Positions 2,649-10,225 of a DNA stretch of 64,000 nucleotides are shown piece after piece. Source of the DNA: Gallaecimonas sp. GXIMD4217 (GTDB taxonomy: Bacteria > Pseudomonadota > Gammaproteobacteria > Enterobacterales > Gallaecimonadaceae); the NCBI RefSeq assembly GCF_038087665.1, contig NZ_CP149925.1, positions 895,455-959,454 of the forward strand. The letters run 5' to 3'. The notes beneath the pieces were generated by a model that saw nothing but the letters and a program-made list of their open reading frames with translations, had not been told where the DNA came from and did no database searches. The stretch's first letter is position 1; each line of letters starts with the position of its first letter. A program made the translations under genes and the position numbers.

Positions 2649-3251
2649 ATGATGTCAGTACATACTCACACCCTGGTGCTGGCCCACGGCGCCGGCGCCG
2701 GCCTGGATCACCCCTTCATGCAGGCCATGGCCAGGGGCCTGGAGGCCGAAGGCATCAAGGTGGTGCTGTTCGACTTCCCCTACATGCAAAGGGCCAAGGC
2801 CGAGAACAAGAAGCGCCCACCGGACCGGATGCCGGTGCTGCTGGACGCCATGCGGGCGGTCATCGACGCCACCGAGGGCCCGCTGTTCTTGGGCGGCAAG
2901 TCCATGGGCTCGCGGGTGGCCCTGACCCTGGCCAAGGAGCTGGGCGAGCGTTGCCGGGGCGCCCTGGCCCTCGGCTACCCCTTTCATCCGCCCGGCAAGC
3001 CGGAGCGGCTGCGCCTGGAGCCCTTCGAGGGCCTGGCCAAGCCCACCTTGATATTGCAGGGGGAGCGCGATACATTCGGCCGCCGCGACGAGGTGGACGG
3101 CTACCCGCTGCCGGCCAATGTGAGCCTTCACTACCTGCTGGACGGCGACCACAGCTTCAAGCCGCGCAAGGCCAGCGGCCGCAGCGAAGCGGACAACCTC
3201 GATGAGGCGGTGGCCCGGATGGCGGCCTTTATCAGGGAGCACGGCCGATGA
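2649..3251 (+). CDS. Alpha/beta-hydrolase of the KANL3/Tex30-like family
   Basis: The 200-residue cytoplasmic protein starts at 2649 (a second ATG follows at once). Early it has the motif LVLAHGAGAGLDHPFMQ. The nucleophile elbow G-K-S-M-G lies near residue 82, a likely acid near LILQGERDTFG, and the catalytic His in GDHSFKPRK near residue 160. This matches the small bacterial hydrolases related to KANL3/Tex30; substrates are unknown. The gap to gcvA is 12 bp, and its stop overlaps the first copy of the duplicated DUF423 gene start, so it is probably co-transcribed with its neighbours. Confidence 0.82.
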   Translation: MMSVHTHTLVLAHGAGAGLDHPFMQAMARGLEAEGIKVVLFDFPYMQRAKAENKKRPPDRMPVLLDAMRAVIDATEGPLFLGGKSMGSRVALTLAKELGERCRGALALGYPFHPPGKPERLRLEPFEGLAKPTLILQGERDTFGRRDEVDGYPLPANVSLHYLLDGDHSFKPRKASGRSEADNLDEAVARMAAFIREHGR

Positions 3252-3343
3252 AATGGTTATTGATTTTGGCCAGCCTGTACGGTGCTACGGGTGTGGCCCG
3301 TATTGGAGCCGTTGGCGCCCCAGGCAGCGAGGTGTTGTCATGA
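3248..3343 (+). pseudogene. Mini-ORF: first duplicated copy of the DUF423 gene start
   Basis: A 31-codon frame begins MKWLLILASLYGATGVA, like the start of the real gene at 3432, then diverges (RIGAVGAP) and ends EVLS at a TGA. Its ATG overlaps the hydrolase stop, and its own stop overlaps the ATG of the next copy. It could be translated by coupling, but it most likely remains from a tandem duplication. Confidence 0.6.
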
Positions 3344-3435
3344 AATGGGTATTGGTTTTGGCCAGCCTGTACGGTGCTACGGGTGTGGCCCGTATTGGAG
3401 CCGTTGGCGCCCCAGGCAGCGAGGTGTTGTCATGA
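3340..3435 (+). pseudogene. Mini-ORF: second duplicated copy of the DUF423 gene start
   Basis: The frame again holds 31 codons (MKWVLVLASLYGATGVA... to EVLS) and is nearly identical to the first copy. It ends in a TGA that overlaps the start codon of the full DUF423 gene at 3432. The encoded peptide would be a lone hydrophobic helix with a short tail. Confidence 0.6.
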
Positions 3436-3803
3436 AATGGGTATTGGTTTTGGCCAGTTTGTATGGTGCCAGCGGTGTGGCCATGGGCGCCTTTGCCGCC
3501 CACGGCCTCAAGCAGGTGCTGAGCCCACAGCTGCTCACCGTGATGGACACCGGTGTGCGCTACCAGCTCTGGCACGCCCTGGCCCTGGTGGCCGTTTTTC
3601 TCTTGGCCGACAAGCTTTCCGGCCCCTGGCTCACCGCCGCCGGTGGCCTCTTCGCGTTCGGGGTGCTGGCCTTTTCCGGCAGCCTCTATGCCCTGGCACT
3701 GACCGGGGCCAAATGGTTTGGACCCATCACGCCCATCGGCGGGATGGCCTTGATCCTCGGCTGGCTGGCGCTGATGCTGGCGGCCTTTAAGGAGACGGTG
3801 TGA
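3432..3803 (+). CDS. ygdD: DUF423 (YgdD family) inner-membrane protein
   Basis: The 123-residue product has four predicted membrane helices and family motifs: GAFAAHGLK after the first helix, YQLWHALAL at the second, FSGSLYAL at the third and ITPIGG before the last. The family is conserved next to gcvA and rlmM in many gammaproteobacteria, and its role is not established. I start it at the ATG at 3432, the third repeat unit. Frames opening further upstream only read through the duplicated units. Its stop overlaps the GTG start of rlmM, implying translational coupling. Confidence 0.88.
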   Translation: MKWVLVLASLYGASGVAMGAFAAHGLKQVLSPQLLTVMDTGVRYQLWHALALVAVFLLADKLSGPWLTAAGGLFAFGVLAFSGSLYALALTGAKWFGPITPIGGMALILGWLALMLAAFKETV

Positions 3804-4911: not shown

Positions 4912-5408
4912 ATGGCTGCTGTTTGGGTGTTGTTTCTGGCTTGGTGCTCTTTTTCTGGCTGTGTTGGTGTTTTTAAGCTGGGTTCTTCGAGATTCCCCTG
5001 CGGGGGCGTGACTTTCTTGCTCGCCCAAGAAAGTCACCAAAGAAGGGCGGCCCGGCTCGCGTTCGCCAGCTAAAATGGGGCCAGTGGCCCCATTTCTTAA
5101 CGCGCTCACCCCTCGCTTCCACTCGTTTACCGCTGACCATGAGTGACGCGCTCCATGCGCGGCACTCATTCCCTCGTCTTCCCTGCCTCGGGCCAGCTCA
5201 CACTCGTTTCCGCTCGGCACGCTCAACGGGCGGTCCTGGCCGCTTTGCGGCCATCAGGTGGCTGTTGCATTCACGGTATTGGCAACATAATCTGGAGCTA
5301 ATTCAGGGATGATATCGGGCATCGGCCCCAGAAAAGCATGGATGCGAATACCCTCCAAAACTGTGTTTCCATCCAGCATATCTGCTATCGGCTCCCCAAT
5401 TGTGCGCG
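4912..5408. other. Gene-poor junction between rlmM and the cassette array
   Basis: I see no convincing gene here. The left part (to about 5225) is GC-rich and holds a 12-bp perfect hairpin and short complementary stretches. A 105-codon open frame on the minus strand has no ribosome site or family features. On the minus strand, 5254-5379 could encode 41 residues ending in NTVNATAT, perhaps the end of a degraded gene. The base composition drops to AT-rich from about 5260, consistent with the edge of acquired DNA. No integron integrase or attI site was recognised. Confidence 0.5.
5008..5037. repeat. Perfect 12-bp inverted repeat (hairpin)
   Basis: GTGACTTTCTTG (5008-5019) and CAAGAAAGTCAC (5026-5037) are exact reverse complements around a 6-nt loop. 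There is no T-run, so it is not an ordinary terminator. Hairpins of this CTTTCTTG type recur as dispersed intergenic repeats in several proteobacteria; whether this one belongs to such a family needs a genome search. Confidence 0.7.
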
Positions 5409-5653
5409 TTATCTCCTGAAATCAGGCGCGGTTATCTCATTCATCTTTGTAAAAGACGCTTTTAATCAAAGGATTGAGACGTGATCGGAGTTCTGGCTAT
5501 CACGCATGGGTTGGAACGATAACGCGCATGCGCGTTTTTGCCCTGATGAAACCCTTGGTAAAAACAGAATTTTTTAATTTTCAGCATGATGCGGCATCCA
5601 AGCAAAAGATCTTACCAAAGGATATCGCGCATGCGCACAATACAGCGTTAAGC
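5409..5653 (+). other. Probable gene-less integron cassette with degenerate attC
   Basis: A cassette boundary core GTTAAGC lies at 5647-5653. Upstream, GATAAC at 5518-5523 is the complement of a GTTATC core near 5408-5413, as expected if a cassette starts there. Between the two cores are 11-bp arms GCGCATGCGCG and CGCGCATGCGC. No credible coding sequence fits; a 67-codon frame overlaps the recombination site. I infer a short cassette of about 240 bp carrying no gene, with moderate to low certainty. Confidence 0.4.
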
Positions 5654-5666
5654 ATAAGGAAAGCAT

Positions 5667-6164
5667 ATGAAACATAGGTCTGTAATTCTTAAACGGGACC
5701 TTGCAATAGGGACTTTTTTTACCCAAATTAGTCTTACTTTTAATAAGATAATTTATTCTTTTTTTGCTCTATTATTCGCGTATCAAGAGTGGAGTTCGAT
5801 ATTCGATACTTTTGGGCTTGTTGAGTCTCTATTTTTCTTGTGTTTGTTTGTATTTTATCTGGTTCTCATTATATTTTTCGTCGGTTGTTTTGGCGTAGCC
5901 ATGGCATTTTTTAGCTCTGTCTTTAAAAAAGGTGTTTTAGGTCATCATGACTTTGAATTCAGCGAGGACGAGTTTACTGAGTCAACTGATTATAATAAAA
6001 CCATCCATAAATACGGCGCTATTTCAAACGTGTTTATACGGTTTGGTTCGGTATATATTTGCTTGCCAGGTGCTCAGTGGCATATTTTGCCAAAAAGAGA
6101 TTTTAAAAGCATCCAAGCTCGCAATGAGCTTCTGAACTTCTTGCGAGAGGCAAGAAATGCTTAA
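5667..6164 (+). CDS. Cassette gene 1: YcxB-like membrane protein
   Basis: The 165-residue protein has two hydrophobic helices (about residues 25-45 and 52-78), then a soluble C-terminal domain with H-D-F-E-F, KYGAISNVF, SVYICLPGAQWHILPKRDF. That pattern matches the YcxB-like C-terminal domain found in small membrane proteins of unknown role. AT-rich codons contrast with the host. AAGGAAAGC precedes the ATG. The stop codon TAA lies inside the attC core that follows, and the cassette starts at the core at 5647, 20 bp upstream, which is a typical cassette layout. Confidence 0.75.
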   Translation: MKHRSVILKRDLAIGTFFTQISLTFNKIIYSFFALLFAYQEWSSIFDTFGLVESLFFLCLFVFYLVLIIFFVGCFGVAMAFFSSVFKKGVLGHHDFEFSEDEFTESTDYNKTIHKYGAISNVFIRFGSVYICLPGAQWHILPKRDFKSIQARNELLNFLREARNA

Positions 6165-6262
6165 CAAGCGCATCTTGCCGGACTTGGGCAAATTGTCACC
6201 TTTTTACGCTGCGCTTCAAAAAAGCCGCCAATTCACCCAAGCCGCAAATGCGAGCGTTATGC
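6159..6262 (+). other. attC recombination site 1
   Basis: The R'' core GCTTAAC (6159-6165) begins a 104-bp site ending in GTTATGC (6256-6262). Inner boxes CATCTTGC and GCAAATGCG pair with one extra base. The R'' core is the exact complement of the first bases of its own cassette (TTAAGC at 5648), the signature expected of a cassette excised as a circle. Confidence 0.8.
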
Positions 6263-6281
6263 ATCAAGGGATCTGTAGTGC

Positions 6282-6590
6282 ATGGATACTTCTCAACTAA
6301 AGAAAATGAAGCGGCATAGAAGAATGTACCGCTTTATGGGGGCAATGTTTACCCTTGTGGGGGGTATGCTGCTAGTAACCTTTTTCCCGTTGTTACTGGA
6401 TGAAAATGCCACTATCAACTACAACGGTTCACCTACATCGGAATTCGGACCAAAGCTTAGCGCAGTCATATTCAACGCATCATTTGTGGTGGTCGGGCTG
6501 TTCTTTCTATTTTGTCCGAGCAAATACTTAAACAAACTTTTTGTATGGCGTCAGTCGTTTTTGGTCACTATATTCCCATGGCGAAAGTAA
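6282..6590 (+). CDS. Cassette gene 2: small two-helix membrane protein
   Basis: The 102-residue product has a basic N-terminus (KKMKRHRRMYR), a helix about residues 18-38, a short polar loop with NATINYNGS, a second helix about 62-78 and a basic tail. No family was recognised. It starts at the ATG at 6282, 25 bp past the cassette boundary, and ends just before the next attC core. AT-rich composition and position mark it as an integron cassette gene. Confidence 0.65.
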   Translation: MDTSQLKKMKRHRRMYRFMGAMFTLVGGMLLVTFFPLLLDENATINYNGSPTSEFGPKLSAVIFNASFVVVGLFFLFCPSKYLNKLFVWRQSFLVTIFPWRK

Positions 6591-6591
6591 T

Positions 6592-6681
6592 GCATAACAA
6601 ATCGTGCAATGATCGCCCTTCGGGCTGGACAGCCAAAAGCGTGGCTTCGCCACATGGCTGCCCATTCACTCTGCGTTAGGT
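6592..6681 (+). other. attC recombination site 2
   Basis: GCATAAC (6592-6598) opens a 90-bp site closed by GTTAGGT (6675-6681). Inner boxes near GTGCAATG and CATTCACTC pair imperfectly, and the centre holds further hairpins. The R'' core is the exact complement of this cassette's own start, TTATGC at 6257. Confidence 0.85.
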
Positions 6682-6685
6682 GCAA

Positions 6686-7102
6686 ATGGAATTCGCAGTC
6701 GTAATTTTTATCCTATTTATTGAAATCACTCTGTTGTTTAAAAAGGATGATAAAAATCGTGCGGCTGAAATAGATAGAATTTTTTAAGGTAGAAAGTCGT
6801 TATTACCTCACGAATTTTATGAAGCGCATTATAGCGACAAAGCTATTCCTGAATTTATTGTTGTCGATATTATTCAAATACTTGAGGCAGAATTAGAAAC
6901 GAATCTTTCCCGATTAATGCCTAGTGATGATTTCTCTGAAAATTTAAGGTATTTGTTTGAATTTGATTCCATGGCTGATGTCGCTGTTCTAGAATCAGTT
7001 GAACGCAAGTTTTCAATAAAAATATCTGACGTGGAAGCAGAGAATATTCAAGCAATTAATGACTTAGTGTTTTTTGTAAATAGCAAAGTAAATTGCACTT
7101 AA
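6686..7102 (+). pseudogene. Cassette gene 3: acyl-carrier-like protein with in-frame stop
   Basis: From the ATG at 6686 the frame gives an N-terminal membrane anchor (MEFAVVIFILFIEITLLF) and reaches TAA at 6785-6787. The same frame then stays open to 7102. Past the stop it reads RKSLLPHEFYEAHY, IPEFIVVDIIQILEAEL, LMPSDDFSENL and FDSMADVAVLESVERKFSIKI, resembling acyl carrier proteins with the D-S-M site where phosphopantetheine attaches in true carriers. The whole was probably one gene of about 138 codons. An internal ATG at 6917 could still give a 61-residue fragment. Confidence 0.6.
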
Positions 7103-7202
7103 CAAGAGAATCAATCGTGATTCGCCATAGTTTGTCATTTTTAGTTGCAAACAGCGCAATAAAATTGCCAAACCAAGCTCACACATTATTCAGGCGTTAT
7201 GA
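7097..7202 (+). other. attC recombination site 3
   Basis: ACTTAAC (7097-7103) and GTTATGA (7196-7202) bound a 106-bp site. The R'' side, GCACTTAAC, complements the start of its own cassette (GTTAGGTGC at 6675) with one mismatch. Inner boxes are weaker than in sites 1 and 2. Confidence 0.75.
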
Positions 7203-7214
7203 GGAGCCAGTACT

Positions 7215-7610
7215 GTGAAGAAAGATTACCACTTGGCAGATCAACCTATACCAGATGGCTTCCAGATCTATGAGGAAAGATTAGATGTTGCAGGCATAAG
7301 TAATTATAAAAAAGCTGCTTCAAAATTTATTCGAGGAAATAGCCCATCCCTTCTTCTGGCGCGAGAGCCCACAAATAAGTACGACAAAAACGCAATTATG
7401 ATAATCGGGTGTTATAAAGGTTTTATGCGTACAAAAAAGGTGCATATTGGCTATGTCCCAAAATCTGTAGCGAAACTCATGTGTGAGTTCGGTTTCCAAG
7501 CTTTTCAGCCAAGGCTGCTCAAGCGGTATGAGGGTAAAAGTGGCTTCGTTGAAGTTCTTTTTCAGTTATTGGGGCCCGCCGGACGGAAAAAATTATATGA
7601 ATCCTCATAA
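7215..7610 (+). CDS. Cassette gene 4: HIRAN-domain protein
   Basis: The 131-residue protein starts at GTG (7215) with GAGGAG 8 bp upstream. It carries a HIRAN-like core: DVAGISNYKKAASKFI, then LLLAREPTNKYDKNAIMI, then VHIGYVPKSVAKLM. HIRAN domains bind DNA ends or damaged DNA in eukaryotic helicases such as HLTF and occur as stand-alone proteins in bacteria. No second domain is present. The gene begins 18 bp past a cassette boundary and ends inside the next attC core. Confidence 0.78.
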   Translation: MKKDYHLADQPIPDGFQIYEERLDVAGISNYKKAASKFIRGNSPSLLLAREPTNKYDKNAIMIIGCYKGFMRTKKVHIGYVPKSVAKLMCEFGFQAFQPRLLKRYEGKSGFVEVLFQLLGPAGRKKLYESS

Positions 7611-7660
7611 CAAGCGGCGGCAGCAAGCGTAGGGCGCAATAACCGAAGGGCATTGCGCCG
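7605..7660 (+). other. Truncated attC site 4
   Basis: TCATAAC (7605-7611), preceded by CC, exactly complements this cassette's own start GTTATGAGG at 7196. It is followed by AAGCG as in the other sites, but no closing GTTRRRY core is visible. A REP-like hairpin begins instead, so the array appears cut off here. Confidence 0.6.
7633..7659. repeat. REP-like hairpin with 8-bp stem
   Basis: GGCGCAAT (7633-7640) and ATTGCGCC (7652-7659) form a perfect stem with an 11-nt loop, preceded by GTAG. The style matches extragenic palindromes mobilised by REP-associated transposases; one such gene starts about 210 bp downstream. Confidence 0.6.
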
Positions 7661-7739
7661 TATTTATGCGCGAAAACGGCTTGATGCTGACTCCCTGCCA
7701 TCAGCCGAAAGCGGCCTTTGGCACGGTAGGTCGCATTGT

Positions 7740-7776
7740 CAGCCCGTAGGTTGGGATGAGGAACGAATCCCAACAT
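7740..7776 (+). repeat. REP element, left member of an inverted pair
   Basis: The 37-bp unit contains GTAGG followed by TTGGGAT and ATCCCAA arms around a 9-nt loop. It recurs in inverted orientation at 9504-9540 with a single mismatch, so the pair brackets the REP-associated transposase gene. Confidence 0.8.
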
Positions 7777-8237
7777 GGCTATCATAGGCAGGATGCCATG
7801 ATCTTTGTTGACCCAATCCTATCAGCGGGCAACCCGCTACTCTGAACGTATTGCTTCATAAGGAGGTGAGATGCGCTATCGACGCTCACGGCTGGCGGGC
7901 GGCACCTTCTTTTTTACGGTCAACCTGGCCGATCGCAGTCAAACGCTGCTGGGCGATCACATCAAGGCGCTTCGTTCGGCTTTTGCTCGTGTGAAGCGGC
8001 GTCACCCGTTTCATGTTGATGCCATGGTGGTGTTGCCGGACCATCTTCACGCCGTCTGGACCTTGCCGTAAGGTGATGGCAACTACCCGATGCGATGGCG
8101 GCTTATCAAGGCCAGTTTCTCGCGAATGCTGCCGAAGGGAGAGCGCCTTTCGGCCTGCAGGGCTTGGAAGGGAGAGCGGGGCATTTGGCAGCGTCGCTAT
8201 TGGGAGCATGAGATCCGGGACGAGAGTGATTATCACC

Positions 8238-9320
8238 GGCCTTGTTGACCAAATCGATGGAACTTAGTCGGAGCCGGGCGATCAGATCGGCCAATCCCAG
8301 CCGTAGAAGACAACCGCCATGGCCATGAAAGCCGCTCAAAGCAAGAACAAGAAGCCCAAGGCCAAGTACCGGGTCCGTAACTGGTCCCAATACAACGAAG
8401 CGCTGGTCAAGCGCGGCTCCCTGACCTTCTGGCTGGACGAGGCGGCCATCCGCAGCTGGCATAGCACCCAGCCCAACGGCAAGCGGGGCCGGGACCTGCA
8501 TTACAGCGACCAAGCCATCACCACCGCACTGATGATCCAAGCAGTCTTCGGCTTGAGCCTGCGGGCGACGGAGGGCTTCATCAATTCGCTGTTCGAGTTG
8601 ATGGGCCTGGAGCTCAGTTCGCCGGACTACAGCAGCATCAGCAAGCGGGCCAAGACGGTGACAGTGGATATCCGTCGCCCCAAGGGCCCGGTAGCGCACC
8701 TGGTGTTCGACGCCACCGGCCTCAAGGTCTACGGCGAAGGCGAATGGAAGGTGCGCAAGCACGGCAAGGAGAAACGCCGCAGCTGGCGTAAGCTGCACCT
8801 GGGTGTGGACGGCCAGGGTCACTGGCTCATCTGCGCCGAGCTGTCCTTGGACAATGTGGCCGACGGCCAGGTCCTAGCCCCTATGCTCAGGCCACTGCGC
8901 CGCCAGATAGGCAGCGTCTACGCTGACGGCGCCTACGACAGCCGGCAATGCTACGAGGAAATCGCCCACAAAAGCGCCCGCCCGCTCATACCGCCGCGAA
9001 GCAATGCCGGTTATTGGCAGGCAGGGCATCCCCGCAACGAGGCGGTGGCGGCACTCAAGGCCGGGGAGCTGGCAGAATGGAAGGTGGCGAGCGGCTACCA
9101 CCGCCGCTCGATAGGGGAGACGGCGATGTGGCGGTTCAAGCAACTGACCGGCAACCGGCTACGACTGCGCGACTATAACGGCCAGGTTGGCGAGGCAATG
9201 GCCCGGGTTGCGGTGTTGAACAAAATGACGGCCTTGGGCATGCCGGTCAGTGACATGGTGCGCTGACCCCGGACGGTGTTGGGGCCCACTGGCCTTGGGG
9301 CTGAATTGATCAACAAGGCC
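8238..9320 (+). mobile_element. Complete IS5-family element (IS903-type), 1083 bp
   Basis: The terminal inverted repeats are GGCCTTGTTGACCAAATC at the left and GGCCTTGTTGATCAATTC read inward from the right, with two mismatches in 18. A perfect 9-bp target duplication ATTATCACC flanks it at 8229-8237 and 9321-9329, as is usual for the IS903 group. It holds one intact transposase gene. The exact duplication suggests recent insertion, into the RAYT gene. Confidence 0.95.
8319..9266 (+). CDS. IS5-family transposase
   Basis: The 315-residue DDE transposase is close to the usual IS903-group length. The acidic triad can be placed: Asp in LVFDATGLK, Asp in YADGAYDS, and Glu in the Y-x2-R-x3-E-x6-K signature (YHRRSIGETAMWRFK). 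The N-terminus is lysine-rich and followed by the DNA-binding region. It begins 81 bp inside the left end and ends 54 bp before the right end. The frame is intact, so the element may be active. Confidence 0.95.
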   Translation: MAMKAAQSKNKKPKAKYRVRNWSQYNEALVKRGSLTFWLDEAAIRSWHSTQPNGKRGRDLHYSDQAITTALMIQAVFGLSLRATEGFINSLFELMGLELSSPDYSSISKRAKTVTVDIRRPKGPVAHLVFDATGLKVYGEGEWKVRKHGKEKRRSWRKLHLGVDGQGHWLICAELSLDNVADGQVLAPMLRPLRRQIGSVYADGAYDSRQCYEEIAHKSARPLIPPRSNAGYWQAGHPRNEAVAALKAGELAEWKVASGYHRRSIGETAMWRFKQLTGNRLRLRDYNGQVGEAMARVAVLNKMTALGMPVSDMVR

Positions 9321-9503
9321 ATTATCACCGCCACATCGATTATGTTCACTTCAACCCGGTAAAACACGGCCTCGTAGCCCGTTGTCGTGACTGGCCTTAT
9401 TCCAGCTTCCATCGTTATGTTCGAAAGGGCATCCTATCTATAGAGTGGGGCCTATCCGGTTCACAGGCTGGATCGGATTTAGGGGAGTAGGGCTTGGGTT
9501 GTG

Positions 9504-9540
9504 ATGTTGGGATTCGTTCATCATCCCAACCTACGGGCTG
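9504..9540 (-). repeat. REP element, right member of the inverted pair
   Basis: The 37 bp are the reverse complement of 7740-7776 with one mismatch (in the loop). The position is 13 bp past the end of the RAYT gene. Confidence 0.8.
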
Positions 9541-9578
9541 ATGTAGGATTATGTGTAGCGAGTTTGAAGATGGATGTC

Positions 9579-9636
9579 CTTCTAGTTGCTTCTAGTTGCT
9601 TCTAGTTGTTGCTTCTAGTTCCGTCCTTCTAGTTCC
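9579..9636 (+). repeat. Short direct repeats of TCTAGTT
   Basis: TCTAGTT occurs at 9581, 9591, 9601, 9614 and 9628; the first three are at an exact 10-bp period (TCTAGTTGCT). It is a simple-sequence tract just upstream of a small gene and has no coding content that I can see. Confidence 0.7.
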
Positions 9637-9671
9637 TCATGCATAGAAAGCTCAAACATTAAGGGTTCAGT

Positions 9672-9899: not shown

Positions 9900-10225
9900 C
9901 TGGGAACTAAAAAACGCTTCACAGAAGGTTAGCAAGCGTAGGTCAATGGGATGGGGCACGAATCCCAATCTACGGCTTTGCTCAATCATCGAGCGGCATT
10001 GCGCCATCTGGGGGTTCTGGCCGGACTAATCACCCCCGGGTTGACTTCCAAAGCCGTGCGGACAAGGATTGAACCATGAACGCGAACGTCTCAGCTCAGC
10101 CGACGCGAATTATTCCCCTCATTCCCTAGGAATGGTGGGTTGGCTGCTGCATGAGATTCGCAAAACCCGCCCAGGAGGCGGTTTTTTCGTATCCGCTTCC
10201 CGGGCCTGGATGCCAAGGAGGCAAT
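9900..10225. other. Gene-free stretch with REP-like hairpins
   Basis: A third REP-like palindrome sits at about 9938-9975 (GTAGG, then ATGGGAT and ATCCCAAT arms, CTACGG). A GGGGGT...ACCCCC inverted repeat follows near 10010-10037. I see no gene: the only open frame here reads through the terminator at 10162-10187. Confidence 0.5.
10162..10187 (+). terminator. Intrinsic terminator-like hairpin
   Basis: AAAACCCGCC and GGCGGTTTTTT pair with a 5-nt loop, leaving a T-run. There is no clear gene directly upstream, so it insulates the next gene from the mobile region or ends an unseen short transcript. Confidence 0.65.

Follow-up and report, generated by a model that had tools for sequence, protein, structure and literature searches.

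An attI platform apart from its integrase, repeated around a Gallaecimonas chromosome

Here, we show that an array of four integron gene cassettes in a 64 kb stretch of the Gallaecimonas sp. GXIMD4217 chromosome (positions 895455-959454 of a 3.35 Mb genome in a single contig; this stretch is referred to below as the window) is headed by an attI unit of about 300 bp, and that homologous units recur around the chromosome, six in all, one of which adjoins an integrase gene (intI). Judged from its sequence, the window locus is an integron platform without an integrase gene of its own, at which cassettes were inserted successively by integron site-specific recombination. We consider it probable that the genome harbors a distributed integron, in which many attI platforms are served by one integrase (IntI), encoded about 1.16 Mb from the window array and acting in trans. 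The initial annotation of this DNA had proposed an integron-type cassette array with no integrase in view. An attI platform apart from the integrase and repeated round the chromosome was absent from its interpretation, and the array start that it gave, 5409, falls inside the attI unit (5353-5650), which it had not named.

Results

The attI unit and the distant integrase

The unit heading the window array lies on the plus strand and extends from an intI-promoter/SOS-box region to the attI crossover; an nhmmer attI-unit profile, which includes the window copy among its 13 seeds, matches it with 223 bits (E 8.6e-67). Near its left end is an SOS/LexA-type box, CTGTgtttccatCCAG (5361-5376), which has seven of the eight fixed bases and lies 286 bp before the attI GTT. 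No perfect SOS box occurs elsewhere within the 64 kb window. A perfect palindrome, AACGCGCATGCGCGTT (5521-5536), is the block that the window unit has in common with a sister species, G001. The conserved attI core (5603-5653, plus strand) ends in GCGCACAATACAGC followed directly by GTTAAGC, with the crossover GTT at 5647-5649.

From box to crossover, the window unit is homologous to the spacer between intI and attI of a distant integron. In a search of the genome with profile TIGR02249, one integrase exceeded the cut-off (2058626-2059567; 390 bits versus a cut-off of 265), and the other matches were partial, Xer-like and below it. The earlier statement that no integrase gene lies within the window is thereby confirmed, and the genome is found to contain one intact IntI. 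This protein aligns end to end, over 315 residues, with V. cholerae IntI4 (PDB 2a3v, E 2.4e-85), and the catalytic residues of tyrosine recombinases (R..H-R..H..Y) are in register. In the spacer between intI and its first cassette (locus L007), a perfect LexA-type box, CTGTATGGATATACAG, precedes the intI ATG by 15 bp; the spacer ends at the attI crossover, GCGCACAATACAGC followed by GTTA. With a LexA box at the intI promoter, the L007 integron would be of the SOS-controlled kind.

Six attI units in one chromosome

Genome-wide counts given here rest on matches from genome searches. DNA searching yielded homologous attI units at 900854 (the window array), 2660864 (84% identical to the window unit), 2059635 (the spacer beside the intact intI, 68%), 1437238 (67%), 1797912 and 1762329. 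For the last two, the initial match was the final 48 bp (83-85%), and the full length was obtained by alignment. A tree of 33 units places all six in a single clade (support 100/99). The final 50 bp are the best-conserved part, with pairwise identity of about 0.82-1.0 in this genome versus 0.35-0.79 elsewhere in the unit, as would be expected for an attI core; even copies too diverged to align elsewhere retain 83-85% identity over 48 bp of the core. By tblastn, the five units without intI show no trace of the gene within 3.5 kb.

All six junctions between attI and first cassette obey the circular-cassette rule, and the six first cassettes are different. The paired ends are GTTAAGC/GCTTAAC (window), GTTAGCT/AGCTAAC, GTTATGT/ACATAAC, GTTAGAT/ATCTAAC, GTTATGC/GCATAAC and GTTATAT/ATATAAC; the third of these, at L101, was read by eye, the script having picked a later GTT. 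That different cassettes stand behind homologous attI units indicates that insertion occurred at each unit, rather than that one attI-plus-cassette block was copied.

The SOS box is perfect (8/8) in L101, L102 and L103, which are three of the four other intI-less copies of this genome, and in L137, L138, L139 and L144 of a second sister species, G002. The spacing from box to crossover is constant at 285-293 bp (measured from the core GTT in L103). In units of G001 type B the box is weaker, and in several other units it is absent, such that its retention is common but not universal. The left flanks of the units are mosaics of intergenic repeats, with many units starting at or next to the SOS box. 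Inspection by eye of the unit ends revealed neither terminal inverted repeats nor target duplications, and for that reason we do not claim a transposon-like mobile unit. Repeated minus-strand open reading frames (ORFs) to the left of units in G001 were rejected as protein-coding, as amino-acid identity between copies drops faster than DNA identity.

Distribution in the genus and beyond

The comparison set was the taxonomic family, comprising five genomes of one genus (G000, the present genome, to G004). Dispersed attC arrays occur in all five. Most of the loci inspected came from G000, G001 and G002, with two further from G003, in addition to the intI loci; G004 was represented by its intI locus only. 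At nearly all inspected loci, in four genomes, an attI unit stands at the 5′ edge on the same strand. In G001, three sequence types (B, C and D) are represented among about a dozen units, with one intI, while G002 has nine units and no intI; two G002 arrays show no recognisable attI unit. Among units of the genus for which a script located both the core and the next attC, 21 of 25 fit that attC. Two of the four exceptions (L101 and L113) fit when read by eye, and another (L108) lies >2 kb from the next detected attC. The youngest copies, L105 and L108 of G001, are 95% identical over 1.1 kb.

The initial annotation would have been undermined had the same gene order turned up in many species. 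In the four sister genomes, neither attI nor attC adjoins rlmM, the gene beside the window array, which implies that the window platform is specific to this lineage.

Two further arrangements were seen in these genomes. In L141 (4090-5011, minus strand), an attI unit is followed in tandem by a second of another type at a distance of about 600 bp; this second unit stands directly after a cassette, GTTATATGG/CCATATAAC, whose attC is truncated. In L147 of G001, an exact tandem duplication of a cassette (7018-7917; 452 bp, 99.8%) lies immediately behind the attI unit.

For five other integron carriers, the intI-linked attI was searched against its own genome. Oceanimonas sp. CHS3-5 and Shewanella atlantica each have one copy. 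Thalassolituus marinus has at least six, five of them without intI, and attC sites were detected after three of these five. Of the three copies in Marinomonas hwangdonensis, two bear intI; the third lacks it, begins at its LexA box and is accompanied by four attC sites. In Marinomonas fungiae, only the first 35 residues of intI are left at the second attI copy (97% identity), illustrating one route by which an intI-less copy can arise. Recurrence in Thalassolituus marinus and two species of Marinomonas means that the layout is not peculiar to one genus.

A cassette shared between platforms

In G001, a whole cassette of 751 bp is 99.87% identical between an intI-less array (L106) and the intI array (L113). 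Identity starts at CGTTAGAC and stops at AAACGTTA, the two GTTA crossover points; outside these the loci are unrelated. The ends of the cassette fit each other (GTTAGAC/GTCTAAC). Breakpoints at both crossover points are as predicted by IntI-mediated movement between platforms. An exchange by homologous recombination would not be expected to end at both of them, but a single case is not proof.

Cassettes of the window array

Four gene cassettes, all on the plus strand, occupy 5648-7611 of the window, three with a complete attC and the fourth with one cut short. In each of the four, the 5′ bases are complementary to the cassette's own R'', with one mismatch overall, just as the initial annotation had written them. 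Genus-wide, 49 of 74 cassettes match their own R'' fully in the three informative 5′ bases, compared with 3.7 on average and at most 12 in 10,000 shuffles; such pairings are not due to chance.

The attC sites were evaluated with a covariance model, R1, built from 15 training sites in the other loci of this genome and in three sister genomes, with the window sites excluded. R1 was limited to these 15 well-aligned sites because a MAFFT alignment of all attC sites put the left stem wrongly in several rows. Its stem covaries, with 51 cells changed on both sides versus 17.7 in shuffles and 95% of cells paired. R1 recovers three of the four window sites, each with the imperfect L''-L' stem, AAC/GTT ends and extrahelical base of attC. 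The claim of four attC sites, which absence of the fold would have contradicted, thus stands for three; the fourth is only a stump. A strict GTTRRRY/RYYYAAC scan was abandoned, as it missed most sites; R' in these arrays is often GTTATGC.

Cassette 1 (5648-6256) begins with TTAAGC and has R'' GCTTAAC, so that GTTAAGC at 5647 pairs with GCTTAAC at 6159-6165. Its ORF (5667-6164) encodes 165 aa with a YcxB-like C-terminal domain (PF14317, score barely over the cutoff), and its attC (6159-6262) scores 51.0 bits (E 1e-9) with R1. Cassette 2 (6257-6675; TTATGC and R'' GCATAAC) similarly pairs GTTATGC at 6256 with GCATAAC at 6592-6598. It encodes a small protein of 102 aa (6282-6590) that matches no family, and carries an attC of 29.7 bits (6592-6681). 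Cassette 3 (6676-7196) has the single mismatch, between its 5′ bases TTAGGTGC and R'' GCACTTAAC, as seen when GTTAGGTGC at 6675 is set against GCACTTAAC ending at 7103. Its ORF (6686-7102) has an in-frame TAA at 6785-6787, and would be either a pseudogene or a gene whose true start lies downstream of that codon; its attC (7097-7202) scores 33.2 bits. In cassette 4 (7197-7611; 5′ TTATGAGG, R'' CCTCATAAC), GTTATGAGG at 7196 pairs with CCTCATAAC at 7603-7611, and the ORF (7215-7610) encodes 131 aa with a HIRAN domain (PF08797). What is left of its attC is R'' CCTCATAAC and about 17 bases; the 3′ half is missing, and a palindrome of the repetitive extragenic palindromic (REP) type (7629-7659) stands in its place. 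This position gave no match to the attC covariance model up to E 5. The REP-type sequence also closes the array at genome position 2660864.

A sigma-70 scan over 5300-7800 gave zero promoter-like sites versus 5.7 expected, and no cassette promoter can be named. No close relatives of the ORFs of cassettes 1 and 4 were found on plasmids. The arrays examined have 1 to 7 detected cassettes each, with diverse attC sites, and do not resemble a Vibrio-type superintegron with its tens to hundreds of cassettes and near-identical attC sites. Taken alone, the window array is modest, consisting of four small cassettes, one dead gene and one truncated attC. Its interest lies in the attI unit that heads it.

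Discussion

How might such a distributed integron work? IntI from 2.06 Mb would insert circular cassettes, in trans, at any attI unit with a matching core, and would excise them via attC at all units. One enzyme could thus feed many expression sites, and its own expression would be SOS-controlled via the LexA-type box. The units themselves may have spread through duplication of entire platforms, intI being lost afterwards, through gene conversion between repeats, or as an unrecognised mobile unit.

Several considerations weigh against the idea of platforms served in trans. At L135 and L136, two arrays of this genome (near 1.178 and 1.965 Mb), no attI can be recognised, so the idea does not cover every array. 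The attI units appear to outlive the enzyme, as in G002, which lacks IntI. The cassette shared by L106 and L113 could also be explained by homologous recombination or by two acquisitions. With one genome per species, gain or loss at strain level is invisible. Finally, with a mismatch in its SOS box, an apparently dead cassette 3 and a truncated attC 4, the window platform could be idle at present.

Some of these points bear on the possibility that the arrays are frozen relics of degraded integrons, with a complete set of intI, attI and cassettes once present at each place, intI then deleted, and no activity in trans. Loss of intI does happen, as the Marinomonas fungiae remnant and an internal TGA in the intI of G004 attest, and G002 retains its attI units with no intI. 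However, no intI remnant is seen beside any intI-less unit of the genus, and many units begin just left of the SOS box. Moreover, the SOS box and attI core are conserved while the remainder has diverged to about 65%, and the cassette common to intI-less and intI arrays in G001 points to exchange after separation. We regard the relic explanation as unlikely, though one to be taken seriously. A related idea, that several different integrons were gained by lateral transfer and then lost intI, draws support from the coexistence of attI types B, C and D in G001, the last two of which match the attI beside intI in G003 and G004. For the present genome it seems rather improbable, as all six units, the intI-linked one included, fall into one clade, a pattern that fits multiplication within the lineage.

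Two other explanations fare worse. Insertion by IntI at attG is reported (mentioned in PMC12901181 and PMC12444791), and such insertion at ordinary secondary sites, with merely local resemblance to attI, could account for L135 and L136, where no attI is recognisable. But attG sites need no long homology, whereas the homology among the window and the five other units spans about 300 bp and takes in an SOS box at a constant distance of 285-293 bp, and this makes the attG explanation very doubtful for the window. It is equally hard to credit that a single large array was scattered by insertion sequences or inversions, leaving the window as a fragment. Insertion sequence (IS) elements and repeats do flank several arrays, that of the window among them; yet scattering would give one attI, not six, each with a fitting first cassette. 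The earlier suggestion that the window array might be the tail of a larger one is not supported. On the left the array begins with an attI unit whose crossover GTT lies at 5647 and to which the first cassette is correctly joined; on the right a REP element closes it.

The other half of that suggestion, a cluster of attC sites lacking an integrase (CALIN), is correct by software rules, as the window has at least two attC sites and no intI in the neighbourhood. According to IntegronFinder 2.0 (PMC9024848), integrons typically have one attI close to the integrase, and clusters without intI are CALINs, treated as degraded; attI is detected only for class 1, and CALINs are defined and sought by attC alone. 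The window locus would be called a CALIN by such software, yet it is not a bare one, being headed by a homologous attI unit that is repeated elsewhere in the genome. Compared with a complete integron, it has the attI and lacks the adjoining intI.

Known systems share some of these features. In Xanthomonas, according to the sections of PMC12444791 that we read, a sedentary chromosomal integron with inactivated intI persists as a degraded platform at ilvD, with its attI-side region and cassettes, and CALINs elsewhere in the genome are mapped with no attI reported in those sections. The degraded platform of Xanthomonas occupies the ancestral intI locus, whereas here intact attI copies occur at many new loci, among them the place beside rlmM, which is empty in the four sister species. 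Insertion at attG likewise places cassettes outside the main array through IntI acting in trans, but its targets are short non-attI sequences rather than a conserved 300 bp attI unit. In the Delta-attI-type cassettes of class 1 and 2 integrons (PMC12901181), attI sequence is also found away from intI; these attI pieces replace attC inside one array, whereas here complete units head separate arrays. In the open-access literature, we found no description of a chromosome with several attI platforms for which one integrase would serve.

More tentatively, a single SOS-induced IntI may serve many attI platforms in several marine Gammaproteobacteria, with the SOS-box-to-attI unit multiplying discretely, and part of the CALINs catalogued as degraded may belong to a working multi-site system; we are somewhat less than evenly inclined to this broader view. 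Should many such arrays possess an attI of their own and rely on a common IntI, more than one first-cassette position would be open to a bacterium at the same time, and both the number and the role of CALINs would need to be revised. Whether a CALIN is dead or is fed in trans, a long-standing question, becomes testable.

Neighbouring elements and other observations

To the right of the window array lies a REP-flanked unit (7739-9541) with 38-nt inverted arms (7739-7776 and 9504-9541) and a REP-associated (Y1) transposase gene at 7871. An IS5-family (IS903-like) element (8238-9320) splits this gene; its inverted ends are 18 bp long, and its target duplication of 9 bp, ATTATCACC, occupies 8229-8237 and 9321-9329. 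A short tandem array of TTCTAGTTGC-type units (9576-9637) lies between the REP unit and the next gene, and a borderline Rfam match to the Pseudomonas small RNA P9 (43.5 bits versus a cut-off of 43) is found at 10106-10186. Upstream of rlmM, the start of a small membrane protein gene carries a tandem duplication of about 165 bp (3248-3501, 91% identity).

Elsewhere in the genome, the same IS110-type transposase gene (MSKANTLFIGLDVHKETTD) occurs in L007 (11622-13016) and L102 (10008-11402). In both, it directly follows an attC with R' GTTGATA, which suggests an insertion element that targets attC. Defence-like genes recognised by PADLOC models lie in or beside the arrays L101 (9928-10715), L102 (7813-8565) and L154 (5553-7127); their products include a NucC-like nuclease, a CAP12/Pycsar TIR effector and a Drt8-type reverse transcriptase.
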